Positions 131-38,899 of a stretch of DNA of 43,651 nt are shown one piece after another (position 1 is the stretch's first letter; the number at the start of each line of letters is the position of its first letter). Both the position numbers and the translations under genes were made by a program. The notes under the pieces were generated by a model, which saw nothing but the letters and a program-made list of their open reading frames with translations, was not told the origin of the DNA and ran no database searches. The stretch is taken from positions 1 through 43,651 of the forward strand of contig JACOSX010000036.1 of assembly GCA_016178625.1 (NCBI GenBank), given 5' to 3'. Source of the DNA: Ignavibacteria bacterium. GTDB taxonomy: Bacteria; Bacteroidota; Ignavibacteria; UBA10030; SZUA-254.

Positions 131-2479
131 TCATTTTATCAGCATCATTTTCTTGATCTGCTGGAATTGACCGTTGTTGACGTTAAGCCGATAGAAATAC
201 ATCCCGGACGATAAATTACTTGCATCGAATGTCACCTCCTGATTTCCTTCATCCATCTGCTCGTTGTCGAGTACTGTTGCCACTTCCCTGCCAAGGATGT
301 CGTAGACCTTCAACGATACAATTGACTGTTCCGAAAGATCGAACTCGATCGTTGTTGTCGGGTTGAACGGATTCGGGTAATTCAGATAGAGTGCATAGCG
401 CTCGGGCGTAAGATCGAGCGAGCCCGGGGGAAACGAGAGTGGCTCCACGAGCGGCGCGATCGCAGGCGCAAGGAATGGGATACTATCGATCAGCACTGCA
501 CCGGTGACAACCAGGGGCTGCTTACTCACAACACCCAGTGGTCCGGTAAACGCACGATTCACCCGCGCAAAGATCGAATCGAGATGGGGCCAATCTACAG
601 ACGGGTACTTCTTCCAGTATGTCAGGTAATTATCCGCGAGTGTTGCGATTGCCCTCAGCGTCATCCCGTTAAAATGGTTGCTTGTATCACCGTCATCATA
701 GGTGAGATCACCGAGAGTGGGAGGAGTCACCTCCGCATCACTTGCTCCGATGTTCACGCGCAGAGCAATCAACTCACCTGCCAGATGATTATCGTGCTTA
801 TCTCTCTTGGGATTTTTCTTCTCACCGACAAATGGATCAGTTCCATAAAAGTCGAACCCTCGAGCGGGTCCCGTATCGGGTACATATCCGGCAACTCCCT
901 TTCCTTTATCGAAGCGCATCCAACCGTAACTCGATGCGCTATCGGGACGCGCGTTTCCAACCACAAGTCCACCCGGATATCCGGCAAAACCTTTCTTGAT
1001 CTTGGGATAGGCTTTGGTCATGGCTTCATCGCGAACGTTCCCACCGTTCGGTGGTGCCGATGTTTTCAGGTTTGCCGCTTTCACGGCGAAACTATCCTGG
1101 ATAAACGTACGATACTTCATCTTATTTGGATCAACATATTTGATCGTCAGGAATTCCGAACCCTTTGTCTTGTTGCTTGTACCGGTCACGTATACAGCGC
1201 CGCCAGAAGAGACGATCGCATACGGAACGTCATCGCCGTTCGCAGTTCCATTATATCGCAAACTGAAGTTCTCGTTGCCGTTTGAGCCATTGTACTGAAC
1301 TGTCGCGTAATCCAATCCGACGCCGGCACCAGCGCTCGGACCTATCACGTACGGGTTATTTCCGCCACTAATCGCTACGCCACCGTCGTCGTCATTCGCA
1401 GTTCCATTGTACGCCGAAAGCCAACTTTCATCGCCAGTTCCCTGATTGTACCGCACGGTGACGATATCATTGAAGCTTCCTGTTTGCAGACTTCGCCCCG
1501 TAACGTACACTCTGCTTGTACTTTGGACCGAGATCGCATACGCTTGATCATCACCATCCGCTGTTCCATTATAACGCGATACCCAATCTACTCCCCCATC
1601 AGAGGAAGCATATTTTATTGTTGCGTAATCGTAATCAGCAGGCAAACCATTTGCCGAATCCTGACTTCCGCCGGTAACGTACACCTCTGATGAACCTCGT
1701 AAGACAATCGCGCGTGCGATGTCATTGCCGTTGCCCGGTCCATTATAGCGTGCAACCCAAATCGAATCACCTGTGGCAGCGTCATACTTAATCGTCGCAT
1801 AATCAAGAAGAGTATCAAAGCTTGCACCCGACACGTACACATCGCTTGTCCCGTTCAATCTCATGGCAAGGGCGCTATCCGTTCCGTTGCCGGGACCGTT
1901 GTACCTCTTTTCCCACTTCAAGTTTCCTGCGGAATCATATTTCAGAGTGGCATAATCGAATCCCGTACCGGAGCCCATACTCCACCCCGTCACATACACA
2001 TTCAACGAATCATTGACAGCAATAGCGGAAGGTTTATCCTCACCGTTGCCGGGACCGTTGTAGCTGTTCACCCACACCTGAGTCAGATTGCTGTCGTACT
2101 TGATCGTAACATAGTCAAATCCTGAAGCACCGCCGTCACTGTAGCCCGTCACATACACATTCCGCCCGGTATCGACAGTGACTGCAACTGCTTTATCCAT
2201 GCCGTTTCCAGATCCCGTATAGTATGCCTCGTGCAGCTTCTCTCCATCTGAAGAGTACTTCACTGTTGCAATGTCAACTCCTGATGTCGATCGCGTGACC
2301 CATCCCGTAACGATAACATTGCCGTTATTATCAACAGCCATCGCCGTTGCGCCGTTCTTACCATTCTTGGTACTGCCGGAGAACCGGGCGACCCACTGGC
2401 GGGCAAGATCTGCTGTGGATTCAGAAGTGAATATCATCGCGACAAGGGCGAGAACGAAAAATTTTGTAGAATGTGTCAT
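131..2479 (-). CDS. SBBP-repeat beta-propeller protein with T9SS type A sorting domain
   Basis: This 782-residue exported protein starts with a signal peptide (about 1-23). It then carries about eight SBBP-type blades (roughly 40-445), each with a YVTG...DYATIKY core and an intervening YNGPGNGxD strand, so a beta-propeller fold is expected. Residues about 456-672 match a module shared with three other proteins in this window; it contains GNVRD, HLAGELIALRVNI, INRAF-like and TGPL motifs and is not a family I recognise. Residues 695-782 are a complete T9SS type A domain (LNYPNPFNPTTTIEF, VYDILGREVATV, SSGMYFYRL, KKMMLIK). The ATG has AAAAGGA 7 nt upstream. The gene follows the 797-residue paralogue by 39 bp, so the two are probably co-transcribed. 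The predicted location is the cell surface or outside the cell. No catalytic motif was seen; a structural or binding role is inferred. Confidence 0.9.
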   Translation of the reverse strand: MTHSTKFFVLALVAMIFTSESTADLARQWVARFSGSTKNGKNGATAMAVDNNGNVIVTGWVTRSTSGVDIATVKYSSDGEKLHEAYYTGSGNGMDKAVAVTVDTGRNVYVTGYSDGGASGFDYVTIKYDSNLTQVWVNSYNGPGNGEDKPSAIAVNDSLNVYVTGWSMGSGTGFDYATLKYDSAGNLKWEKRYNGPGNGTDSALAMRLNGTSDVYVSGASFDTLLDYATIKYDAATGDSIWVARYNGPGNGNDIARAIVLRGSSEVYVTGGSQDSANGLPADYDYATIKYASSDGGVDWVSRYNGTADGDDQAYAISVQSTSRVYVTGRSLQTGSFNDIVTVRYNQGTGDESWLSAYNGTANDDDGGVAISGGNNPYVIGPSAGAGVGLDYATVQYNGSNGNENFSLRYNGTANGDDVPYAIVSSGGAVYVTGTSNKTKGSEFLTIKYVDPNKMKYRTFIQDSFAVKAANLKTSAPPNGGNVRDEAMTKAYPKIKKGFAGYPGGLVVGNARPDSASSYGWMRFDKGKGVAGYVPDTGPARGFDFYGTDPFVGEKKNPKRDKHDNHLAGELIALRVNIGASDAEVTPPTLGDLTYDDGDTSNHFNGMTLRAIATLADNYLTYWKKYPSVDWPHLDSIFARVNRAFTGPLGVVSKQPLVVTGAVLIDSIPFLAPAIAPLVEPLSFPPGSLDLTPERYALYLNYPNPFNPTTTIEFDLSEQSIVSLKVYDILGREVATVLDNEQMDEGNQEVTFDASNLSSGMYFYRLNVNNGQFQQIKKMMLIK

Positions 2480-2518
2480 GATGCAATCCTTTTTAATTGA
2501 GGATGAATGAACTCCGTC

Positions 2519-4912
2519 TTACTTCAACACCATCATCTTTTTTACTTGGCTCATAGTCACGTTTCCCGAAAGAGGCTCTGCAATGAGTTGATAGAAATAC
2601 ACTCCGGAGGACAGATTTGAAGCATCAAAATCCATTACCTGATGACCATCCTCCATTGTAAGATGGTCAATTGGCGTACTGACCTCTTGACCTAGAATGT
2701 TAACAACCCTTACCGTCACCACAGAAGGTTCAGGCACCACAAATTCGATTGTCGTAAATGGGTTGAAGGGATTTGGATAATTCTGGAATAGGGTGAACTC
2801 GTCAGGCACGCCCGGATCAACAGGTCTCGCTTCGAATGCGGGGATCGCTGTCGGTCGATCAATGCTCGGTAAAAGATACGGGATTGAAAACAAGGCTTTT
2901 GTCGACGTGATGCGCAATGGACTTGTCGATACCGTATCGAACGGTCCGTCGAAGGCAGCATTGATCTTCTTGAGAGAGCTTGCAAGGCTCGTGTAATTAA
3001 CATGGTATGACCGCCATATGGTAAGTATACTGTCAATGGTGCCGGTAATCTGTCGCAGCTTTTTATAATTGAGCGGATTGCTCTGGAGCGCCGTGTCCTT
3101 AAACACGAGGTCACCCAATCCCTCTTGAATAATTCCGGCATCGCTTGCTGCGATATTCACCTTTAAGGCAAGCAACTCGCCTGCGAGTCGGTTATTGTAC
3201 CTTATGATACTCGGGTTCTTCAGTTTGCCTACGAAACTACGATCGAATATTCTATCAAACGGACGAGGGGTACTCCACTGGGGTAACGCTCTTCTTACAT
3301 GCAGGCTCTTTGTGAAATATTCCCATCCATAATACTTCGCACTATCCAGCCGTTCAAGTCCAACAACGATACCATTAGGAAAAACACCGCGACCGAACGT
3401 CGAATCACGGACATTTCCGGCGTTCGGGATGCCGATGATTGTACTGAACCCTTTCTTAAATCTTTTGGACTTTACGCCGAGACTCTCCTGAAGAAATGTT
3501 CGGTAACATCCGCCGCCGAGCAATCCATTGGCGCCGATGCGACTTGCATAGATGTCCGTTGAACCGGAATTGAGATGATAATCTGCCCATGCGATGATCG
3601 CTCCATGAAGACTATCGCTTGCAAGCTGCGGCATGAACTGATCCATCGGCGCAGTCGATATGGGCACGCCATCTGTGGACCAAAGCGCACTTCCATCTTG
3701 ATCCAGACGCTGCGCATAAATATCGTACGAGGGGGTGCGTTTGTCCTGCCATGTAACGACAACATCCGAGCCCTGCATAACCACCTGTGGGTTGTATTGC
3801 TGCCCGGGACCTGCACACACTGCCACTCCTCCAGCCGCCCATAACGTCTGTCCGCCAGCATTCACCCTTTGAGAGAAGATATCGTAATCTATTCCGCGAT
3901 TGTCTTGCCAAACGACAACTGCACCGCCACTACCGTCCTTTGCAATTTGTGGGTAATACTGGATTCCTGAGGCGGTCACGAGTTGGACGCCATTTTGCGC
4001 CCACTTCACGATGCCGTTGGCATCAACTCTCTGAGCGTAGATATTATCAGTTTGACCATTGCGCCGGTCTTGCCAGGTGATGATCGCGCCGCCAGATCCG
4101 TCATCCACGAGCTGGGGGTTCCACTGGGCATTCACCGCGTTGCAGATGGAGACGCCGTCTGGTTGCCAAGCAGGCTGCCCATTGGCAAGAATCCGTTGAG
4201 AGTACACGTCTGTTGTGCCGGAACCTAACCGATAATCAGTCCACGCGATAATTGCACCCCCTTTTCCGTCTGAAATCAGTTTGGGTTCAAGCTGATCGCT
4301 GACAGCGGAACATACGACTTGACCATTCGTCGACCAGAGTGCACTGCCGATCGCATTGAAGCGTTGAGCATAAATATCGAACTGCCCATTGCGCCGATCT
4401 TGCCAGGTGACAATAACACCGCCCGATCCGTCAGTGACAAGCCGTGGATTATACTGATGTCCTGTTGCATTACATACCAATGTACCGTTCGGGGTCCACC
4501 ATGGTATGCCGTCGGAGTTGATGCGCTGGATAAAAATATCGTAATCAACACCATACCGGTTGTCCTGCCAGACAATGAACGCTCCTCCCAAGTCATCTGC
4601 AATGATCTGCGGATAATACTGGTACCCCGCGCTCGTTGCAATCTGTACCCCTCCATCCTGCCATACCATGCGTCCCGCTGGACCAACTCTCTGAACAAAC
4701 AACTTATCCGTCGTGCCATCACGTCGATCCTGCCAAACAAGAATCGCACCATTCTTACGATCGCTCACGAGGTGAACATTCCACTGATTTCCGGCTGCCG
4801 TGACAATGGGAACAGTTGTGTCCGACCGACAGGGCCAATCCGCACGCGCCGCTTCGTAGATACAAGAACACGCGAGCAATAGTGCTATACAAAATTTTCT
4901 CACAAGAATCAT
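2519..4912 (-). CDS. WQD-repeat T9SS cargo protein
   Basis: This 797-residue protein has a signal peptide (about 1-24) and seven to eight tandem units of roughly 50-55 residues (about 30-460). Each unit contains a core like GGAIITWQDRR followed by DIYAQR and a W-containing turn (ALWSTNG). The regular W/D/Y pattern predicts a beta-propeller or beta-solenoid. Residues about 470-685 are the shared module also found in the 782-residue neighbour (YRTFLQES, GNVRD, RLAGELLALKVNIAASD, INAAFDGPFDT). Residues 706-797 are a full T9SS type A domain with QNYPNPFNPFTTIEF and terminal KKMMVLK. The ATG at 4912 has no good Shine-Dalgarno sequence. No enzymatic motif is visible. It is likely surface-exported, and its function is unknown. 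Confidence 0.88.
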   Translation of the reverse strand: MILVRKFCIALLLACSCIYEAARADWPCRSDTTVPIVTAAGNQWNVHLVSDRKNGAILVWQDRRDGTTDKLFVQRVGPAGRMVWQDGGVQIATSAGYQYYPQIIADDLGGAFIVWQDNRYGVDYDIFIQRINSDGIPWWTPNGTLVCNATGHQYNPRLVTDGSGGVIVTWQDRRNGQFDIYAQRFNAIGSALWSTNGQVVCSAVSDQLEPKLISDGKGGAIIAWTDYRLGSGTTDVYSQRILANGQPAWQPDGVSICNAVNAQWNPQLVDDGSGGAIITWQDRRNGQTDNIYAQRVDANGIVKWAQNGVQLVTASGIQYYPQIAKDGSGGAVVVWQDNRGIDYDIFSQRVNAGGQTLWAAGGVAVCAGPGQQYNPQVVMQGSDVVVTWQDKRTPSYDIYAQRLDQDGSALWSTDGVPISTAPMDQFMPQLASDSLHGAIIAWADYHLNSGSTDIYASRIGANGLLGGGCYRTFLQESLGVKSKRFKKGFSTIIGIPNAGNVRDSTFGRGVFPNGIVVGLERLDSAKYYGWEYFTKSLHVRRALPQWSTPRPFDRIFDRSFVGKLKNPSIIRYNNRLAGELLALKVNIAASDAGIIQEGLGDLVFKDTALQSNPLNYKKLRQITGTIDSILTIWRSYHVNYTSLASSLKKINAAFDGPFDTVSTSPLRITSTKALFSIPYLLPSIDRPTAIPAFEARPVDPGVPDEFTLFQNYPNPFNPFTTIEFVVPEPSVVTVRVVNILGQEVSTPIDHLTMEDGHQVMDFDASNLSSGVYFYQLIAEPLSGNVTMSQVKKMMVLK

Positions 4913-25615: not shown

Positions 25616-27925
25616 TTATTTTAATAAGAGCATCTTTCCTGTCGATTCGGCTTTCTTGTCAGTTGTAAAAATCCTGTACAGATAAACGCCCGATGAAAGA
25701 CCCTGTCCGTCAAAGACAACGTCGTGCTTTCCTTCCGTCAACGGCGCACCTTCCATAAGGGTAGCGACCTCCTGACCAAGGAGATCATACACCTTCAGAG
25801 TAACAGCGTTCGCCGCGGGCAATTCAAACTGGATTCTCGTTGTTGGATTGAACGGATTTGGATAATTGCGTATTGCTATTCGACTCTCTACGACTGGCGC
25901 AAGTGACGATGTAAACGTTGCCAATGTGCCGTATTGGAGAATTGTCCCTCCCGGTCCCGCAGCCCAGAGTCGAGTGCTATCCTGGAAGCTGAGGCCGCGA
26001 AGATCTTTGGTCGTGGGCGAAAATTGTTTTGTCCACATTAATCCACCGTTGGTAGTGCAAAGGATTCGTCCGGAGCTCCCGACAATCCATCCGCGTATTG
26101 GATCGGTAAAAGCCACAGCATACAATGGTTGGCTCACCCCGGCTGGCGTAATCATCCATGATGCACCCCCGGTGGTCGTTCGCAAAATGATACCACGTTC
26201 TCCCACCGCGACGCCGGTCGTCGCATCAATAAAATGCACCGAGTTCAACGTGCGATTGTTAGACACCGTCTGGATGCCCCATGCCGCTCCGCCATTTGAC
26301 GTGTGGAGAATGATTCCATTCGACCCGACGATCCATCCGTTAGATGAATCCACGAAAAAGACATCTTGCAGGATGTTCCGGAAGCCTGATACCTGTCGCT
26401 GCCAATGGGCACCTCCGTCCGTCGTGTTCAAAATTGTGCCATTCGTTCCCACAACCCATCCCAAAGTTTGAGAGACAAAATAGACCGATCGGTAAAACGC
26501 ACTGGTTCCCGAGACACGAAGACCCCACGTCGATCCTCCGTCAGTCGTTTGATAGATGGCAGCATGATCACCGACGGCAACGGCATTTACCGAATCAGTG
26601 ACAAAGATCTTTCGGAAATGGTATGATATCAATTGTGATTGATAGGCCCATGTCCGCCCACCGTCCGTCGTCCGGAAGATCGTACCAGCTTTCCCAACGA
26701 CCCAACCGCGGAGGCTATCACTAAAGTGCACATCGTATAAGTAGTTGGTGAATCCGCGTGAAACCTTCGTCCAATTCACCCCTCCATCGGTCGTATAATA
26801 TATGTTGCCCTCCAAACCGGAGATCCACCCATGTAAAGCGTCTGTAAAGCGAACTCCCGTAAGCCACTCGAGCGTGCCGGAAGTCTGAGTCGCCCATGTC
26901 TGTCCCCCGTCTGTGCTCTTAATAACTGTTCCACTCGATCCGACTGCCCACCCGGTCGTCGTGTCGGAGAAGGTAACCGATTCGAACATTGCGTTGACAG
27001 GGGAACTCACCGAGAGCCATGAAGCACCTGCGTTCGTCGTCCGGCGAATTCTCCCCTTGCCACCCACTGCGCACCCTTTGAGTGGTGTCATGAAGTTGAC
27101 CGAGGTAAGGCTCACGGAGTCACTAGCGAGCTCGACAGTCCATAGAGAGCCGCCATTGGTTGTCCCATAGATCCGTCCCGAATCGCCTACAACCCACCCA
27201 TGCAAAGCGTCAACAAAATCAACGCCGCGCAATGCGCGTGCCCCAATTGCCACTTGGGTAGTCCACGAAGAGCCACCGTTCGTCGTCTTCTTCAATGTTC
27301 CTAAATGCCCCACTATCCATCCAACATTCGCATTTAAAAATCGGACGGCATCGAGCGGCTGTGTCGTACCAGTTCCCAGCTTTGTCCACGAAAATCCCGC
27401 ATCCGTCGTGCGAAGGACAGTTCCAAACAGACCAACGGCGAACCCGTTGTTGTCGTCAACCATGTCAATTGCATTTAGACGGTTGCCGGTTGCCCGATTC
27501 GCGGGAAGTAGCTGCCAGCTTGTTCCGCCGTTCGTAGTCGCGACTGCTGAAGCCCTGTTCCCGACAAAGATCGCATGAGCCGACGGGGTCACATCAAGAC
27601 CAAAGAGTGCGCTCGCCTGAGGGAACGGATTGAGCCATGTCCAATATCTTCCCGAAGCACCTGCACTATCCGTATAGAGTGGATCGGTGAACAAGAATTC
27701 GTCATCCGGTGAGACTGTAGCACTTCCTCCATCGTGGGATGAACCATCGTCCACGACGGGAGCCGGTTCATTTTCAAAAACTTCTTTCGGTTGAACCTCA
27801 TCCTTCGAACCAGGAGTGCTTTGAGAATAGGATATCTGGCTCGCAAGGAAAACGCCAATGAAGAGCACGGCGGCACACAGCAGTTCCGCCGTTCTCCACT
27901 TCACAACCTGTTGTTTGTCTTTCAT
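25616..27925 (-). CDS. Ycf48/BNR-repeat propeller protein with T9SS sorting domain
   Basis: The frame is open to 28129, but the upstream part overlaps the usher gene. I choose the ATG at 27925 (MKDKQQVVKWRTAELL...), which gives 769 residues with an N-terminal hydrophobic segment (LLCAAVLFIGVFLASQI). An alternative ATG five codons upstream is possible. An acidic linker (about 35-75) precedes about a dozen Ycf48-like units (GWVVGDSGRIYGTTNGG type, about 85-655), predicting one or two propellers. Residues 683-769 are a complete T9SS type A domain (RNYPNPFNPTTRIQFEL, LSSGVYLYRI, GKMLLLK). It starts 31 bp after the usher-like gene, so it is probably the last gene of that operon. That makes it a candidate surface partner of the fimbria-like system, though this is inference from position only. 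Confidence 0.87.
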   Translation of the reverse strand: MKDKQQVVKWRTAELLCAAVLFIGVFLASQISYSQSTPGSKDEVQPKEVFENEPAPVVDDGSSHDGGSATVSPDDEFLFTDPLYTDSAGASGRYWTWLNPFPQASALFGLDVTPSAHAIFVGNRASAVATTNGGTSWQLLPANRATGNRLNAIDMVDDNNGFAVGLFGTVLRTTDAGFSWTKLGTGTTQPLDAVRFLNANVGWIVGHLGTLKKTTNGGSSWTTQVAIGARALRGVDFVDALHGWVVGDSGRIYGTTNGGSLWTVELASDSVSLTSVNFMTPLKGCAVGGKGRIRRTTNAGASWLSVSSPVNAMFESVTFSDTTTGWAVGSSGTVIKSTDGGQTWATQTSGTLEWLTGVRFTDALHGWISGLEGNIYYTTDGGVNWTKVSRGFTNYLYDVHFSDSLRGWVVGKAGTIFRTTDGGRTWAYQSQLISYHFRKIFVTDSVNAVAVGDHAAIYQTTDGGSTWGLRVSGTSAFYRSVYFVSQTLGWVVGTNGTILNTTDGGAHWQRQVSGFRNILQDVFFVDSSNGWIVGSNGIILHTSNGGAAWGIQTVSNNRTLNSVHFIDATTGVAVGERGIILRTTTGGASWMITPAGVSQPLYAVAFTDPIRGWIVGSSGRILCTTNGGLMWTKQFSPTTKDLRGLSFQDSTRLWAAGPGGTILQYGTLATFTSSLAPVVESRIAIRNYPNPFNPTTRIQFELPAANAVTLKVYDLLGQEVATLMEGAPLTEGKHDVVFDGQGLSSGVYLYRIFTTDKKAESTGKMLLLK

Positions 27926-27956
27926 ACAACCCCCATTCATTTCAATCAACCCCACG

Positions 27957-30533
27957 CTACCGCTCAACAACTTTGAAGATAAGATTCTCAATGACATCTC
28001 CCTCGGGAACGGCGCGAACCTCAATAGGTTTCTCAGCCTGATCACTGCGCAGTCCTCCCGCTTCAAGGTCTTGAGTTGAGATCGAGAGCGTATACGTTCC
28101 GGGAGGTACCCCGATAAAATTAAATTCACCCGTCGAGAAGGATCTCATCGTTTTCGAATAGCCAGTATTGGAAAGCGTCACCGTGATTCCTTCCACCGGC
28201 ACTTCGGCGCCTTTCTGAACTTGAACGACACGACCACTCACAAGCCCGCCGATCACGATCGGGAGATCTAACGGTCTCAAAAGGTTTGGCTCAGCCATGA
28301 CAGCGACGGACTGAAAATATGGAACCCAGTGTGGGTCTTCAAAGTTTTGTACAGGGAAATAGGTGATGTATTTCTGATACGCTTCAGCATTTGCGATGAG
28401 CACACCTTCCTTCTTCTTCTCACCCGCTGCACTGAGTTTTGGTCCGTATGTTTTTACAGTGATATCCGGAAGATACGACTCACCTTGATCTCTGATGCCG
28501 TTGCCGTTGCGGTCGAGGAATGGTCTGAATGATAATGCACCGCGACCGAGACGGAGTCGATCTTCGAAAAAGAAATCTCTCACCGTGCTGGACGTAACGA
28601 TACTGCCGCTGAGTACTTGATCGTACTGGTATTCACTATTTGACCTCAATCCCCGCGCCTCAAAGCGCAAAAACGGAAGATCAAGCAGCGCCTGAAGCCT
28701 GAAGAACGTAAACGACGGTTTGAACGTATGAGTATAGGATGCCGTTAATAAGAGGTCGGAAGTAATGGCTCGGTTGACAACAGCGCCGAAGTCTTGAACC
28801 TCACTCGTCTGGTGATTATACAACGTGGTGATGGCAAAGACGACATCCGCAGGCAAGCGGAAGGAAGAGTTTACTCGCGTTGTCCAGAAGCGTCTGAGAC
28901 TTGGCAAGTCGCCCAATCTCGTCCAACCTGCAGAGTTGGTGACATCGAACCGCCACCCTCCCGTGTACCCGGCAATACCTCCGATTAAACTTTGATCGCG
29001 CTGGTTCTCAAACATGGTCTGGACCGCCTGTACACTAATAAACAGTTGACGCGTGCCCACTCCGATAGGGACGTTGATCGACAATCCGTGCTGGTCAATC
29101 ACCCGGCTAACGTTGAAGGGGGAATTGACGTTAAAGCGAACATTTGTATAGTTGATGAATGCTTGTGATGGAAAGAGTGCACTCAGCGACACGCGAGACG
29201 CGAGGAGTGGTGAAAAGTTAAACTCTCCGATCACGCCAGGCGCTATCCGTGCAGTCGACGAGAAGCCAGGGAACCAGTGAGAAGATTCTCCCTTGCTTCT
29301 ATAATACCACAGATCTCCACCAATGGTGATTCGTTCGGAGGCTCCAACATCGACGGTTGCCTTGCCGTAGCGCGCTTTTGCAAAATTTCTCAACTGGCCC
29401 CCAAGAATGCTGTATTGCACCTCGTTGGGCGGAATCAGGATCTGGGGGATATTTGATCGGAACCGCTCGGAAGAAACCCCACCCCATTCATCATATCGTC
29501 GTATTTCAAAATCAGAAACACCATAAGGCATATCGAGTTCAAAATTATACATACTATCTCGTCGGCTCTTGATGAACGACTGTAACACGCCTCCCTCGTA
29601 AAGCTCGACATCCTGAGACGCCGCTGCCTCGACAGAGAGCACTTCACTTCCGAGCAAGAGCCTGCGCGGAGCGGGTTTGTTCGTAAATTCAACACCGCGA
29701 ACACGACCTGAGAATACAGGATCGTTCTCGGTTAGATCACCGATGGTGATCTGTCTCAGCCACCGATTATCAAAAAAAGGATAGCGAATGAACGCGTTGA
29801 CATTGTTTTCACGCAAACGCTCTCGTACATTCCCGCGGAATCGTGCCTCGAAGTCACCTCCGATAATCTTACCGCCAACACCGAGGGTATAGGCATGACG
29901 GGGAGTTTGATGCTCAAAAACGGACGAGGCTAATCGCCAGTCAACGCGGGTTCCTCCAAACATCGATGCTGCCCGTCCGAAATCGTACGATGGAATAGGC
30001 TTCTCATGGGAACGAAGAGCCCTGTCACGATTTCGTTGTCGCTCAAGCAAGATCTCGATAGGGAGCTGACCTGCGCTTCTGAGCGTCACCGTTAACCGGC
30101 GCGAATCGAACGCTGATTCAATATGAAACAAATCTCTGAGAATACCTGATTCGAGGTACAAATCTTGAGGAGAAACAATGTACTTATCGCTGCTCAGAGG
30201 CACGGTGCGATCCTTCAATTGCGCGGATCCTAACTTCACGTCGATGACATATTGAGAATCAGCGTTAACAAAAAAGCCTGAAACTCTGTTTCGATCGGGC
30301 GAGATCGATGCATTGATACGCAGGAAGGTGAAGACTTCGCTGACGGGCAGATAAATGCGACGATCTTTCCGCAGAATGAAGAGTTCCGTTCGCCCTATAC
30401 CGCGAATCTTCAGCTCCACCGGAACTTTCTCCTCAAGAGGATTGGAAGGATCATCTCCCGCGAGCGCCTCGACAACGCTGAATGCCGCAAGAGCGAAGAT
30501 AACCAGTATGCGAGACATTCTGAGCGAGGGCAT
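27957..30533 (-). CDS. Usher-like outer-membrane protein (candidate chaperone-usher pathway)
   Basis: This 858-residue protein has a signal peptide (about 6-25, SRILVIFALAAFSVVEALAG); a second ATG at codon 6 may be the real start. Residues 36-165 are an N-terminal beta domain with VELKIRGIGRTELF and IYLPVSEVFTFL. A large beta-barrel follows (about 185-690) with alternating strands and many R/Y/F residues. An embedded plug-like segment at about 296-352 (DVELYEGGVLQSF, NFELDMPYGVSDFEI, RRYDEWGG) matches the usher plug pattern of a V-Y-x-G strand, an aromatic-D-L-P strand and a final D-G-like turn. C-terminal parts are an SdrD-B-like Ca-binding loop (FLDRNGNGIRDQGESYLP) and a carboxypeptidase-regulatory/Cna-B-like domain (VSGRVVQV...GEFNFIGVPPGTYTL). 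The start lies 4 bp after the chaperone stop, implying coupling. Assignment is by pattern; an alternative is another large secretion barrel. Confidence 0.75.
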   Translation of the reverse strand: MPSLRMSRILVIFALAAFSVVEALAGDDPSNPLEEKVPVELKIRGIGRTELFILRKDRRIYLPVSEVFTFLRINASISPDRNRVSGFFVNADSQYVIDVKLGSAQLKDRTVPLSSDKYIVSPQDLYLESGILRDLFHIESAFDSRRLTVTLRSAGQLPIEILLERQRNRDRALRSHEKPIPSYDFGRAASMFGGTRVDWRLASSVFEHQTPRHAYTLGVGGKIIGGDFEARFRGNVRERLRENNVNAFIRYPFFDNRWLRQITIGDLTENDPVFSGRVRGVEFTNKPAPRRLLLGSEVLSVEAAASQDVELYEGGVLQSFIKSRRDSMYNFELDMPYGVSDFEIRRYDEWGGVSSERFRSNIPQILIPPNEVQYSILGGQLRNFAKARYGKATVDVGASERITIGGDLWYYRSKGESSHWFPGFSSTARIAPGVIGEFNFSPLLASRVSLSALFPSQAFINYTNVRFNVNSPFNVSRVIDQHGLSINVPIGVGTRQLFISVQAVQTMFENQRDQSLIGGIAGYTGGWRFDVTNSAGWTRLGDLPSLRRFWTTRVNSSFRLPADVVFAITTLYNHQTSEVQDFGAVVNRAITSDLLLTASYTHTFKPSFTFFRLQALLDLPFLRFEARGLRSNSEYQYDQVLSGSIVTSSTVRDFFFEDRLRLGRGALSFRPFLDRNGNGIRDQGESYLPDITVKTYGPKLSAAGEKKKEGVLIANAEAYQKYITYFPVQNFEDPHWVPYFQSVAVMAEPNLLRPLDLPIVIGGLVSGRVVQVQKGAEVPVEGITVTLSNTGYSKTMRSFSTGEFNFIGVPPGTYTLSISTQDLEAGGLRSDQAEKPIEVRAVPEGDVIENLIFKVVER

Positions 30534-30537
30534 GGTG

Positions 30538-31401
30538 TTATTGTATAGTTACGGGAAATGTCCACCGACGAGACTCTCCATGCACAAGTTGTTTAGGAGC
30601 GGTATCGTCTCGTTTTGTTTCTGCAACCATCTCCAGAGTGTACGGACCGCTGGAAGTCGCGCTCACATCAATTTTTACATTGACGACAAAATCCTTGTAC
30701 ACGACGAGGTTGCGATCGAGCGAGCCAACTGACTTTCCCGCATGATCTAACACCCTACACCGTAATCGACCCCAAAACGAAGAATTTCCTATCCTTTTGA
30801 AATGCGCTTTTACCTGAACAACCTGATTACTAAAAACAGCATCGGCAAGATTGTCGAGTTCCACACCTGTTGAAACAGGACTGAGCCGGTAGTGGAGTGG
30901 AATCTCCATTGCCGTAATGACTTCCAGAGCGGGACCCTTAGTTTTTTGCCTGATGGACTTTGTGGGATGAGGTGTAAACAGCATCTTGCCCCAATACTCA
31001 CCCGAGGGCGTGCCAGGCGGTGGCGTAACAAAGATTCGAACTCCCTGGGACTCCTGCGGTCCGATCACAAATCGTTGAGGATATGGACGAATCCATGATT
31101 TCATCGAGCGGTCGTCGGACGAGAGCGATTCTGGATAGACGATCACTAGCCTGCCAGTATCGTCACTCACGTGGTATCCATATCGAACGTCAGCAGTAAC
31201 CTCGACCGGCTGATCACCATCATTGCGAACCGTGACGACTGTCGATTTTAATGGTCCGTCAATAAACACATACACCGGTCGGATGACCAACCCGGCTTGC
31301 GCAATAGATAAGAGAGAAGTAAAAACACCAAGCATCACGAACAACAACGCGAACCATCGCGGTGAAGAACATACTTGAGGAAAATGCTGAGGGTCTTGCA
31401 A
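30538..31401 (-). CDS. PapD-like periplasmic pilus chaperone
   Basis: The open frame reaches a GTG at 31446, but that codon lies inside a terminator hairpin loop. A TTG at 31401 with AAGGAAGG 8 nt upstream is preferred, giving 287 residues. A hydrophobic signal (WFALLFVMLGVFTSLLSIAQA) leads to an Ig domain with chaperone hallmarks: LVIRPVYVFI first strand, VTVRNDGDQPVEVTADV, SWIRPYPQRFVIGPQES, VRIFVTPPPGTPSGEYWGKM. A second Ig-like domain follows (VVQVKAHFKRIGNSSFWG, PYTLEMVAET). In the known chaperone-usher pathway such proteins complete the fold of pilin subunits in the periplasm and carry them to the usher. It lies between a pilin-like gene and the usher-like gene, which supports the call. 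The classical residue assignments (Arg/Lys anchor) cannot be fixed without alignment. Confidence 0.78.
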   Translation of the reverse strand: MQDPQHFPQVCSSPRWFALLFVMLGVFTSLLSIAQAGLVIRPVYVFIDGPLKSTVVTVRNDGDQPVEVTADVRYGYHVSDDTGRLVIVYPESLSSDDRSMKSWIRPYPQRFVIGPQESQGVRIFVTPPPGTPSGEYWGKMLFTPHPTKSIRQKTKGPALEVITAMEIPLHYRLSPVSTGVELDNLADAVFSNQVVQVKAHFKRIGNSSFWGRLRCRVLDHAGKSVGSLDRNLVVYKDFVVNVKIDVSATSSGPYTLEMVAETKRDDTAPKQLVHGESRRWTFPVTIQ

Positions 31402-31422
31402 ATGTGTACCCTTCCTTATTAT

Positions 31423-31463
31423 AAAAAAAGGAGGGATTACATGCACTGTGTACCTGTAATCCC
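31423..31463 (-). terminator. Factor-independent terminator between pilin and chaperone genes
   Basis: A perfect 9-bp stem, GGGATTACA/TGTAATCCC (31433-31441 with 31455-31463), has a 13-nt loop. On the minus-strand RNA it is followed by CC and a run of seven U (31423-31429). It lies 37 nt after the pilin stop and before the chaperone start. It should lower transcription into chaperone and usher, making the subunit more abundant than the assembly machinery. This arrangement is familiar from fimbrial operons. Confidence 0.8.
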
Positions 31464-31499
31464 ACCCATTATATTGTGAAGAGATTATGCTACCAGCAA

Positions 31500-32048
31500 T
31501 TACGGAGCGCCAGTGTAGCTAGCAGTGCACAATGCGGTTCCGGCATAGGTATCGCCGGAGAGCGCTGCAACTGGAACGCAGAAGTTGAAGCCCAGTCGCA
31601 CACTGATTGCACCACCTGTACCGGTATTGAAGGTGTTCCCCACACCGGGATTGGTGAGTCCGCCATCTTCAATACGCACCTGTGATGTCGGTCCAAACGA
31701 TACCGGAATCACTCCGGCTGACCCCGTCAATGCGGTCGGCAGTGTCCACTGTACCAACACGTCCTGACCCGGATCGCCAGTGATATCGGCACCCAAATCT
31801 GTGGTTGCTTCGCCGTTATCGGCTGGGAAGATGATGCTTGCACCACCGGTTGCATCAAACACAACCGTGTAGCACACGCCACGGATCACGTCCGTCACAT
31901 CGCAATCGACGTTGCCCACTGCAATGCCAGCACCCGCAGGGGTGATGGTAAGTGCAGAGACTGCAGATGCACTGGTCAGCTGTGCATTTGCCATGCTCGT
32001 CAATCCGATAACCAGGATGACTGCGCAAACAAATATGAAGCCTTTCAT
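31500..32048 (-). CDS. Pilin-like (DUF4402-like) subunit
   Basis: This 182-residue protein has a strong AAGGAG site 6 nt before the ATG, fitting high expression. The signal peptide (1-22) ends MANA|Q. The mature protein opens with an alternating stretch (SASAVSALTITP), as expected of a donor strand in donor-strand exchange. A beta-sandwich pattern follows, with VVFDATGGASIIFP, VPVSFG-like and GGAISVRLGFNF strands, and it ends near GDTYAGTALCTASYTG, the typical final strand of DUF4402/spore-coat-U-type subunits. Four cysteines in the mature part (C49, C59, C157, C174) could form two disulfides, one between C49 and C59 and one between C157 and C174. It carries no T9SS domain. Neighbouring chaperone and usher genes support a fimbrial role. 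The family assignment is by pattern, not by a search. Confidence 0.72.
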   Translation of the reverse strand: MKGFIFVCAVILVIGLTSMANAQLTSASAVSALTITPAGAGIAVGNVDCDVTDVIRGVCYTVVFDATGGASIIFPADNGEATTDLGADITGDPGQDVLVQWTLPTALTGSAGVIPVSFGPTSQVRIEDGGLTNPGVGNTFNTGTGGAISVRLGFNFCVPVAALSGDTYAGTALCTASYTGAP

Positions 32049-32342: not shown

Positions 32343-33995
32343 TTACTTCAGCAACATCATCTTCTGTACTTGCTGGAACTGTCCGTCGTTGACAATCAAC
32401 CGATAGTAATACACGCCGGAGGAGAGTGAGGAAGCATCGAACTCGATCGCATTCTCGCCTTCGGTGAACTCTTCATGGTTCACCAACGTCGCAACTTCCT
32501 GACCGAGGGTGTTATATACCTTCACCGTCACCAACGCATCTTCGGCTAAGTTAAACTCGATCGTCGTCGTCGGGTTGAACGGGTTCGGATAGTTCTGCCG
32601 CAACTCGTACGCACCGGGAAGCTCATTCGAGAACACCACATCATCCGGCACCGTAATAGATGTTGCTTCCGATAAGGATGAACGATAGAGCACTGTCGAA
32701 TTCGCAAGAGCTTTCACAGCCTTCAACACCAACTTGCCCGTTCCGGCAGACTGGTTGAAGGTAATCGTATCAATCGGACCACTGAAGGCGCCGTTGATGT
32801 TGCGAAGCACTTGATCAAGCTGGCCAATCGTTCCGGCTTTCGGATTGACGATCACGCAGGCAAGCACCGAGTCAGCCTGGAGGCAAATTTCATTCACGGT
32901 CTTACCATTGTATGCCGGAGGATCACCGGGCTGGGCAATATAATGCAGCGTGCCAAAGTCCGAAGCAAACGGGCTTGATGGATCCTTCTTAACCTTCGGA
33001 AGCGTGTTCATGGCAATATTGAGTTTCAACGCCGTGAGATCTGCAAACAGGACGTTATCGTACTTAAGCGGAGGAGCAGATTTTAGACCCTTGTTGATGT
33101 TCTTGCGCTTCCCCGGCAGTCCTGTTGAATCGAGACAGTGTGCAGCAGTAGTATGCTCTACACCCTTGCTAAAAAATGTCTTCATGCAGTCCTTATACTT
33201 CGGGTGATAGACATACTTGAAGATCGGCTTACCCTTGGAGTCCACACCAACCTGCGTCAAAAGACCAATGTGCAAACCCGCGGCTTTGCCGGTTGATGCG
33301 AACAGATCAGGAAATGCGCCTTGGGCGAAGAGCTCTTCACCCATGTTGTTGTAGTTCGGCATCGCCTGGGGGGTCTTGCTCGTGTTCTTCTGGCGCTTTT
33401 CTGCTTTCTGTTTCAGCTTACTGTCACGCGCCAATGCCCACTCGCTTGACGTTGCCGTGCGAAACGCTTTCCCATCACCACTGACGATCGTCACCGTCTG
33501 CGGGCTTGTATCAAATGCAGGGAACGTGTACCCTGTCGTTGCCGTCATGTCAACATCGATCGGTAAACTGGTGTTGGGGTCAATCCCCGTCAAATGCCAG
33601 TACCCTCCGCCTACGCCCGCAAGACCCGCCTGCCAGCTAAATGCCATCGCGCCGCCAGCGTCGTCAGACTTGAACTGCAGTCTATACCGATCTGTCTGGG
33701 AATCGCGGACCTCTTGGTGAAGATTTTTTAAACTTCCCGTACCCAAATTATCAACGCCGGAGATCGTAATGCAGCGGAGATCAAATGTCGGGGGCGGGGG
33801 CGGTATCTCTCTCTCCCCGAGTGAAGTATCGATCCCATTGGTCGCCAACGGGTGAACTCCAATGACGACGGAATCATTACCCACGCCATCCGTCGCGTAG
33901 ATCTTGATACTCCATCCTTGTGCACTCACTGTCTGTGTCGCAAACACAACCAAGCACAAACACACTATGAGCGATAAACCTTTAATAATTTTCAT
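32343..33995 (-). CDS. T9SS cargo protein with LPPxPP-type and shared pre-sorting modules
   Basis: I start at the ATG at 33995, which opens a textbook signal peptide (MKIIKGLSLIVCLCLVVFA, cleavage near VSAQ) with GAGG 5 nt upstream. The frame itself extends to 34109 through a hairpin. The protein is 550 residues. Residues about 26-75 carry the motif ATNGIDTSLGEREIPPPPP, matching a part of the 1071-residue protein. Residues about 266-440 are the shared unrecognised module (KYDNVLFADLTALKLNIA, INGAFSGPIDT). Residues 463-550 are a T9SS type A domain (QNYPNPFNPTTTIEF, SSGVYYYRLIV, KMMLLK). It lies between strong hairpins on both sides, so it may be a single-gene transcript. Confidence 0.9.
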   Translation of the reverse strand: MKIIKGLSLIVCLCLVVFATQTVSAQGWSIKIYATDGVGNDSVVIGVHPLATNGIDTSLGEREIPPPPPTFDLRCITISGVDNLGTGSLKNLHQEVRDSQTDRYRLQFKSDDAGGAMAFSWQAGLAGVGGGYWHLTGIDPNTSLPIDVDMTATTGYTFPAFDTSPQTVTIVSGDGKAFRTATSSEWALARDSKLKQKAEKRQKNTSKTPQAMPNYNNMGEELFAQGAFPDLFASTGKAAGLHIGLLTQVGVDSKGKPIFKYVYHPKYKDCMKTFFSKGVEHTTAAHCLDSTGLPGKRKNINKGLKSAPPLKYDNVLFADLTALKLNIAMNTLPKVKKDPSSPFASDFGTLHYIAQPGDPPAYNGKTVNEICLQADSVLACVIVNPKAGTIGQLDQVLRNINGAFSGPIDTITFNQSAGTGKLVLKAVKALANSTVLYRSSLSEATSITVPDDVVFSNELPGAYELRQNYPNPFNPTTTIEFNLAEDALVTVKVYNTLGQEVATLVNHEEFTEGENAIEFDASSLSSGVYYYRLIVNDGQFQQVQKMMLLK

Positions 33996-34075
33996 AGCAA
34001 CCTCGCTATTTGAATGTGGATGATGAGTTAAATGATAGTTAAATAAACTTTTGTTCGCTTCGGAAAAATCAACCA

Positions 34076-34122
34076 TTGAAGCATCCCGTCCCTCTCCGGG
34101 GGAGAACAACGGGATGCTTCAA
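34076..34122 (-). terminator. Perfect 14-bp hairpin downstream of the 1062-residue T9SS gene
   Basis: Arms TTGAAGCATCCCGT (34076-34089) and ACGGGATGCTTCAA (34109-34122) pair perfectly. The 19-nt loop can itself form a small CTCC/GGAG stem. It begins 10 nt after the stop codon of the gene ending at 34133. The RNA after the stem is AATGG...UUUUU a few bases later, so it could act as a terminator. Confidence 0.6.
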
Positions 34123-37591: not shown

Positions 37592-38668
37592 TCAAAAACC
37601 CATTGCAATGGTGAAAACGTGATTTCCAGTGAAATACTTGACAGATCGATATGCGTAGTCAACAGAGACCTCCGCATCTCTAATGGTAGCACTGATACCT
37701 ACACCGGCGGTGGGTCCAAAGATATACTCTCTACCCTCATCTTCCGATGAGAACGCCGCTCCGCCGCGAACAAAGAGCACCTCGTTAAAAATGTATTCTG
37801 CGCCAATCTTATATTCATCGTCTGAAAAATTGTTGTTCTGGAACGTTGAAGCAAAGTTCATCCGTCCCTCCCCTGCGACGCTGACTGTATAACCTAATCC
37901 AATCTCGATGGTCGACGGTAAATCAGCGGCTGCAGCTTGTATCCTTACTGAGGACGTCTGACGGTTCGCGTCGTTTACCTGAGCGGTTCGAATTAAACCC
38001 CCACCACCGAACCGCATCGAGGGGCCGATATTCTTCACAGCGACGCCAACACTCAGTCCCTCTAAGCCACCAAGACCCGAATATTGAACGCCCGCGTTGA
38101 AAGCAATATCGGTGGCAGAGACACGCGCCATCCTCTCAAAAACGAAGTTCATCGTAATGCCGACGGCGATGCGGTCGGAAATTTGTCGGGCAAATGTTCC
38201 TCCAATAATCATGAACGTCGGCGATGTCTTCTCCCCAGTTCCATCAGGCTGATCCTCCGTCGTCACTTTAACATCACCGAATGATAACGTTTTGATAGTT
38301 AATCCTATGCGACCAACATCGGAGAGACTCGAACCTGCAGCAATATAATCCACACCGATATCGGCAAGATAACTCATATGAGACAACAACAGATTCGTTT
38401 TCGCTGACGACCGCGCAAGCCCCGCAGGGTTCCAATAGATTGCTTCAACACCAGAGATCGTTGCAAGGGATGAGCCTGCCAGCGCGATCGACCGCGCTCC
38501 AACGGGAATCAACAGCTCGGAAGCAGCCGCCGTTCCGGCCTTGTCTCCCCTGCCCGCGAAGAGCATGATAGGATTGATCAATAGACACGCTACCAGGGCA
38601 ACTAGATTCACCACCACCAAACATCTCGAAGGTTTATGAAAAAGTATTTTAAATGGTGGGACAGGCAT
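37592..38668 (-). CDS. PorV/PorQ-family outer-membrane protein (T9SS-associated)
   Basis: From the ATG at 38668 this gives 358 residues, near the usual size of PorV-type proteins. The hydrophobic leader (VVVNLVALVACLLINPIMLFAG) is followed by the family signature: AAASELLIPVGARSIALAGS, then AIYWNPAGLARSS, then LLLSHMSYLADIGVDYIA. The rest is a FadL-like beta-barrel pattern with alternating strands, ending in the aromatic residue F (TIAMGF) as outer-membrane barrels do. In characterised T9SS, PorV binds the C-terminal signal and shuttles cargo to the attachment complex. The frame is open to 38881, but the extra 71 residues are translated REP-like repeats. The 38668 ATG itself lies in a repeat, so a GTG slightly downstream may be the true start. 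It follows the 1068-residue exported protein and is possibly co-transcribed. Confidence 0.85.
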   Translation of the reverse strand: MPVPPFKILFHKPSRCLVVVNLVALVACLLINPIMLFAGRGDKAGTAAASELLIPVGARSIALAGSSLATISGVEAIYWNPAGLARSSAKTNLLLSHMSYLADIGVDYIAAGSSLSDVGRIGLTIKTLSFGDVKVTTEDQPDGTGEKTSPTFMIIGGTFARQISDRIAVGITMNFVFERMARVSATDIAFNAGVQYSGLGGLEGLSVGVAVKNIGPSMRFGGGGLIRTAQVNDANRQTSSVRIQAAAADLPSTIEIGLGYTVSVAGEGRMNFASTFQNNNFSDDEYKIGAEYIFNEVLFVRGGAAFSSEDEGREYIFGPTAGVGISATIRDAEVSVDYAYRSVKYFTGNHVFTIAMGF

Positions 38669-38720
38669 TTCTGCCTGCCGAGACCCAGCAGCAATCGTCA
38701 GACAAGAATGTCTGACCCAC
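38656..38720. repeat. Pair of inverted REP-like palindromic units
   Basis: Unit 1 (38656-38679) begins GTGGGACAGGCATT and contains a CAGGCA/TGCCTG stem. Unit 2 (38697-38720), in opposite orientation, reads GTGGGTCAGACATT on its own strand and contains a perfect GTCAGACA/TGTCTGAC stem. They share the pattern GTGGGxCAGxCATTyyTGyCTG. A head-to-head pair of this kind is typical of REP/BIME elements. A third relative lies at 42328. Unit 1 contains the ATG used for the PorV/PorQ gene. Confidence 0.7.
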
Positions 38721-38778
38721 AGTAAGAAGAAGTTTTTCAACACCTGGTTTGAAGACTTATGAAAAAGTCCCTTCCGAG

Positions 38779-38818
38779 TCATTGCGAGGATTGGAGAGAC
38801 GAAGCAATCTCGCAATGA
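38779..38818. repeat. REP-like palindrome TCATTGCGAG...CTCGCAATGA
   Basis: Perfect 10-bp arms (38779-38788 and 38809-38818) surround a 20-nt loop that includes GACGAAGCAAT. This resembles interspersed TCATTGCGAGG-type repeats seen in many bacterial genomes. It lies in the gap between the 1068-residue gene and the PorV/PorQ gene. Confidence 0.65.
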
Positions 38819-38899
38819 TTGCCTTTGTGTGTTCTTCACCATCGTGCAAGTAGTGAACAACATTCTCCGCGAACACTTCATGAGTTACTCGAATCTATC

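Follow-up and report, generated by a model that had tools for sequence, protein, structure and literature searches.

Chaperone-usher (CU) pili fall into three curated subfamilies: archaic (sigma), such as Csu of Acinetobacter; alternative (alpha), such as ECP of E. coli; and classical, such as Fim and Pap. One chaperone proline is invariant throughout the CU superfamily, and an arginine (CsuC Arg89) that is required to bind the C-terminal carboxylate of the pilin is a mark of the non-classical chaperones (PMC4654587). In a 2016 review of pore families of the outer membrane, fimbrial ushers are listed solely for Proteobacteria, Spirochaetae, Cyanobacteria, and Deinococcus-Thermus (PMC4827864). 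Porphyromonas and its relatives, which belong to the same phylum as the bacterium studied here, carry Type V (Mfa/FimA) surface fimbriae, for which strand donation has been proposed and no chaperone or usher has been described (PMC5789003). In a literature search, the sole paper naming both Ignavibacteri* and chaperone-usher was a Methylococcus secretome study, and no paper on DUF4402 was found.

The window analyzed here is a 43,651-nucleotide stretch of DNA from an Ignavibacteria bacterium. Its minus strand carries three neighboring open reading frames for a pilin-like subunit, a chaperone, and an usher (Table 1), as a first-pass annotation had proposed. That annotation also described a divergent CU locus in a genome of the FCB group that carries T9SS, which is upheld by models of a 24-strand, plugged usher and a two-Ig chaperone. 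By fold, components, and gene order, the locus is a CU system, and its gene set looks intact. As a divergent variant of the CU pathway, it is filed outside the archaic, alternative, and classical subfamilies because it lacks curated marks of each. Very probably it is a pilus operon of the CU pathway from a divergent DUF4402-type clade that is largely unannotated, a reading that draws on the usher and chaperone models, profile links for all three proteins with flat controls, conserved chaperone residues, a conserved gene order, and a hairpin behind the pilin gene.

Table 1. Features of the locus and of its immediate neighbors, with positions in the window.
Feature	Coordinates	Strand	Basis or remark
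T9SS cargo before the pilin gene	32343..34109	(-)	Por_Secre_tail
Pilin-like subunit, 182 aa	31500..32048	(-)	ORF
Terminator-like hairpin in the pilin-chaperone gap	31421..31463	(-)	GGGATTACA-13 nt-TGTAATCCC, then TCCTTTTTTT
Chaperone, PapD-like two-Ig, periplasmic	30538..31401	(-)	287 aa from TTG 31401
Outer-membrane usher	27957..30533	(-)	858 aa ORF
24-strand barrel including plug, usher residues 192-647	28593..29960	(-)	DSSP string of model
Plug-type six-strand insert, usher residues 293-362	29448..29657	(-)	Between barrel strands 6 and 7, model
C-terminal domains, usher residues 665-857	27963..28541	(-)	CTD1/CTD2 position; SdrD_B/CarboxypepD_reg matches
YCF48-like T9SS cargo	25616..28129	(-)	Pfam PSII_BNR + Por_Secre_tail; directly after usher

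The chaperone and usher genes are spaced by 4 bp. The chaperone could also begin at GTG 31446, giving a protein of 302 aa, but the shorter form from TTG 31401 reads as the more likely one because AAGGAAGGG lies directly 5′ of this codon. When the triplet was sought in related genomes, its order was found again: the usher is preceded by a chaperone gene in 19 of the 20 related loci read out, and a pilin-like gene lies 5′ of the chaperone wherever the contig is long enough. This order, kept across the related loci, indicates that the arrangement is not due to chance. The hairpin 3′ of the pilin gene is better than all 200 shuffles at the window locus, and of the 13 loci examined, 10 have a comparable hairpin that outscores every one of 200 shuffles. 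It was detected by a wider scan, the promoter/terminator scanner having missed it owing to a loop limit. It is a candidate attenuator that would allow pilin excess by keeping pilin output higher than chaperone and usher output.

The usher was modeled from a 19-row alignment with a pLDDT of 86.6 and a pTM of 0.68. The DSSP string of the model contains 24 barrel strands in total, six at residues 192-284 and 18 at residues 372-647 on either side of the insert, so that both the barrel and the plug expected by the first-pass annotation are seen. The location of the plug is the one known from PapC. The best 17 Foldseek matches in the PDB, at E values from 6.8e-27 to 6.7e-13, are FimD or PapC without exception, and the first non-usher match follows at E 2.9e-8. 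VIA-align places the model on the FimD pore with a Z of 23.0 (rmsd 4.1, 358 aligned), compared with 19.1 for the best non-usher barrel. In the CU pathway, the N-terminal domain of the usher binds complexes of chaperone and subunit. A folded N-terminal domain occupies usher residues 35-153 in the model, and its profile comparison stays at control level, which counts against the CU reading.

Whole-chain structural alignment extends to usher model residue 856 and FimD residue 833, which means that the C-terminal part of the usher corresponds to CTD1/CTD2. Pfam matches CarboxypepD_reg (3.1e-9) and SdrD_B (6.5e-7) to usher residues 765-821, and the C terminus of E. coli EcpC has a weak and similar CarboxypepD_reg match. 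The suggestion that SdrD-B-like and Cna-B-like C-terminal parts are a special addition lacking in classical ushers was rejected on these grounds.

The chaperone is modeled as a two-Ig protein (pLDDT 85), the fold foreseen for the 287-residue product, and matches CU chaperones of the PDB in both VIA-align (Z 12-13.4) and Foldseek. The model also reaches Z 14.4 with a WxLIP protein; that WxLIP proteins outside the CU pathway score like CU chaperones counts against the CU reading. Across 40 aligned chaperones, Pro57, Asn75, and Pro123 are invariant, and Pro123 matches the invariant proline of the superfamily. At position 154, 32 of these sequences carry Arg, four Lys, and four His; the window protein has Lys there, and hhalign aligns this position to the conserved archaic arginine. 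Arg or Lys at position 154 (36/40) therefore matches the anchor arginine of the non-classical chaperones, both archaic and alternative. By analogy with CsuC Arg89, residue 154 would anchor the pilin carboxylate.

Pilins of the CU pathway have an incomplete Ig fold and a donor strand at the N terminus. The window pilin has a signal peptide followed by QLTSASAVSALTITPAG, a candidate donor strand placed at the N terminus from the sequence, and its C-terminal strand ends SYTGAP. It has no family match in Pfam. Among 18 aligned pilin relatives, seven match DUF4402 and one matches spore-coat-U (SCPU, E 0.04). A CU clade of this kind would supply a function for DUF4402.

Family models recognize the other two proteins poorly. 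Pfam Usher (PF00577) has no above-cut-off match in the window usher and is found in one of the 19 aligned ushers, at E 0.063; it passes the cut-off in none of 22 usher-bearing genomes, with a positive E. coli control, and an archaic reference usher scores 1.4e-37. PapD_N matches the chaperone at 3.6e-4, below cut-off. NCBIfam contains nothing relevant for the pilin, chaperone, or usher. Searching the PDB by sequence with profiles A1-A3, or with only the usher or the chaperone, returns no ushers or CU chaperones, and the marginal matches are attributable to chance.

Alignment-to-alignment comparisons connect the proteins to known CU components. Against E. coli K-12, the usher alignment reaches a probability of 98.6 (E 9e-16) and the chaperone alignment 96.8, with reversed and column-shuffled controls below 1. 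For later hhalign runs, the alignments were enlarged and archaic references were drawn from named plasmids; reversed controls in these runs are at most 1.2. The main carrier of the usher signal is the slice containing barrel and plug (98.6 against archaic ushers); the plug slice scores 67 against the archaic plug (reversed control 0.7), and the C-terminal slice scores 57 against the archaic CTD. Comparisons against one archaic chaperone or usher are weak (2.8 and 0.7) and become strong once both sides are alignments. The enlarged alignment ranges from 24 to 98 against single references, which are not to be quoted alone.

The window locus shares features with each CU subfamily. Archaic systems are linked to it through hhalign probabilities of 99.3 for the usher, 97.9 for the chaperone, and 95.2 for the pilin family alignment against spore-coat-U pilins (reversed control 0.1). 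Chaperones of both groups have a V-x-P start, the invariant proline, and an anchor-type arginine, and both systems keep the pilin-chaperone-usher order. Unlike archaic systems, the window usher escapes PF00577, and the clade pilins resemble DUF4402 rather than spore-coat-U. Alternative systems share the non-classical anchor arginine (PMC4654587) and, in EcpC, the C-terminal CarboxypepD_reg match. They differ in the TcfC and CooC_C domains, which Pfam finds in EcpC and not in the window usher, and the comparisons are lower (62.5 for the chaperone against EcpB/EcpE, 21.6 for the usher against EcpC alone). With classical Fim and Pap, the usher fold is common (24 strands, plug, and C-terminal domains) and the profiles match at 98.2 for the usher and 95.8 for the chaperone, whereas the usher lies below the PF00577 cut-off and pilin similarity is confined to 16 C-terminal residues. 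For Type V fimbriae, Pfam gives no family match to the window pilin, chaperone, or usher.

The usher is present in 28 of 100 related genomes. An initial contig scan for relatives found none; the 19-row alignment is too divergent for scanning, and a nine-row alignment led to seven named MAG loci. The named usher loci belong to Ignavibacteria or Bacteroidota MAGs. In a scan of 395 genomes of the phylum, 213 were positive, and long matches alone were counted because many hits cover only the CarboxypepD-like C terminus. Sixty-four genomes have a match over at least about 600 of the 863 columns, and a count of the listed rows spreads these long matches over at least 15 families. Of 20 long-match loci, 19 have an upstream chaperone and 16 a nearby match to the pilin profile. 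A clade across so many Bacteroidota-related families would extend the known reach of the CU pathway.

Operons of DUF4402 protein, chaperone, and usher that belong to the same clade are also found on plasmids of Polaromonas, Pseudoalteromonas, Sphingopyxis, and Novosphingobium (L156-L159). Their genes are annotated as DUF4402, as molecular chaperone or hypothetical protein, and, for the usher, as carboxypeptidase regulatory-like or hypothetical protein. These proteobacterial operons take the family beyond the FCB group. The new usher clade put forward by the first-pass annotation holds as a family missed by current models, but not as one restricted to FCB bacteria. In a FastTree phylogeny of ushers (836 columns), those of the FCB group form one clade with a support of 0.987, with archaic and classical ushers outside it. 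Adding the proteobacterial members places them with two FCB members at a support of 1.0. In this larger tree, EcpC and the entire group are united at 0.96 to the exclusion of archaic and classical ushers; the group without EcpC has a support of only 0.41.

The locus most likely works like Fim or Csu. By analogy with these systems, the signal peptide would take the pilin into the periplasm, where the two-Ig chaperone would donate its G1 strand to cap the subunit and would bind the C-terminal carboxylate of the pilin. The chaperone-pilin complex would then pass to the usher, which would open its plug, and subunits would be joined by donor-strand exchange while being threaded through the 24-strand pore. 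The window operon has a single pilin gene and no recognizable tip adhesin, which counts against the pilus reading, and the other pilin genes of the genome lie on separate contigs. This composition would suit a system in which the chaperone and usher homologs export a short-chain or capsule-like coat, a homopolymer layer rather than a rod with a tip. Such a coat would use the same assembly pathway and so differs from a pilus in product, not in machine. It is the less likely product, and several of the other long-match loci carry three or four pilin genes before the chaperone.

The operon is flanked by T9SS cargo genes. The listed frame of the YCF48-like cargo overlaps the usher, and its true start is uncertain. 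A homolog of this cargo directly follows the usher in all 13 loci with room for it, and a homolog of the cargo before the pilin gene occupies the same place in 10 loci; both patterns extend over two families. Pfam finds the T9SS C-terminal sorting domain in these flanking genes and not in the window pilin, chaperone, or usher. The constant flanks, together with SprA in the genome, are what could be expected if the triplet were a T9SS accessory that helps the flanking cargos reach or attach to the surface. This is highly improbable, since distant loci (L034-L039 and others) keep pilin, chaperone, and usher without these cargos, and the proteobacterial plasmid operons have none among their annotated neighbors. 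Because of such distant loci, the flanking cargos probably lie outside the CU core. A PorV/PorQ-family outer-membrane protein (37592-38881, minus strand; NCBIfam PorV_fam, 1.5e-43) is encoded beside T9SS cargos upstream of the operon. Such a clade would open the question of how the CU pathway and T9SS coexist on a single cell surface.

The least probable alternative, a shared fold only, in which the genes beside a DUF4402 protein encode an Ig-type protein and a large barrel that serve some unrelated function, would explain why single sequences match no known usher or CU chaperone of the PDB or Pfam significantly, but it is opposed by independent profile links to all three CU components with flat controls, a rightly placed plug, ushers far ahead of other barrels, and a conserved operon.

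Profile searches find one usher and one chaperone in this genome, with more pilin-like genes on other contigs. Further stand-alone pilin genes, on C65 (L107, 1322-6000) and C6 (L108, 186-2477), lie beside T9SS cargos and distant from any second chaperone or usher. One of these cargos has several SdrD_B domains and resembles the 32343-34109 protein, and the other is of the BNR/sortilin type.

A third contig, C89 (L109), has two minus-strand genes (969-2285 and 2289-3236) whose products carry a T9SS sorting domain behind pilin domains. The first protein (438 aa) contains two pilin domains and the sorting domain, and over 152 residues its second pilin domain shares 64% identity with the window pilin. 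Similar two-domain pilin ORFs occur in five other genomes (L141, L143, L144, L145, and L146), four with a sorting domain and one truncated where its contig stops. The first pilin domain of the fusions is mostly without an N-terminal extension, and the stretch between the last pilin domain and the sorting domain is similar to pilin N termini (ITSASSVAAITVTVS vs LTSASAVATLTITVA). Shuffling gives a p of 0.0002 for this pair, 0.0005 for another protein, and 0.06-0.28 for four more, while one of seven control segments reached 0.026; these values come from short segments with chosen boundaries and references and are uncorrected for that choice. The resemblance suggests, with moderate confidence, that the donor strands of the fusions are supplied in cis. 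The chances are about even that pilin modules of the clade have been rewired for T9SS in several Ignavibacteria-order genomes, with the fold completed in cis without chaperone or usher. If so, they would form, together with the Bacteroidota-Proteobacteria usher clade, a natural case of pilins switching secretion route, and cis-completed, T9SS-exported pilins would make donor-strand logic testable beyond the CU pathway.

Other genes and domains accompany the usher elsewhere in the clade. In several distant loci, the usher is directly followed by a small ORF for a secreted product of about 110-140 aa (for example, L075 2866-3279, L035 2251-2595, and L074 8751-9110), in one case on the opposite strand. 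SPOR domains are matched in a C-terminal extension of two of the 19 clade ushers (L037 6795-9659 and L038 5324-8371), and SPOR-domain genes flank the Pseudoalteromonas operon (L157 2302-2787 and 7604-8242). These extensions and neighbors possibly reflect a link to peptidoglycan.
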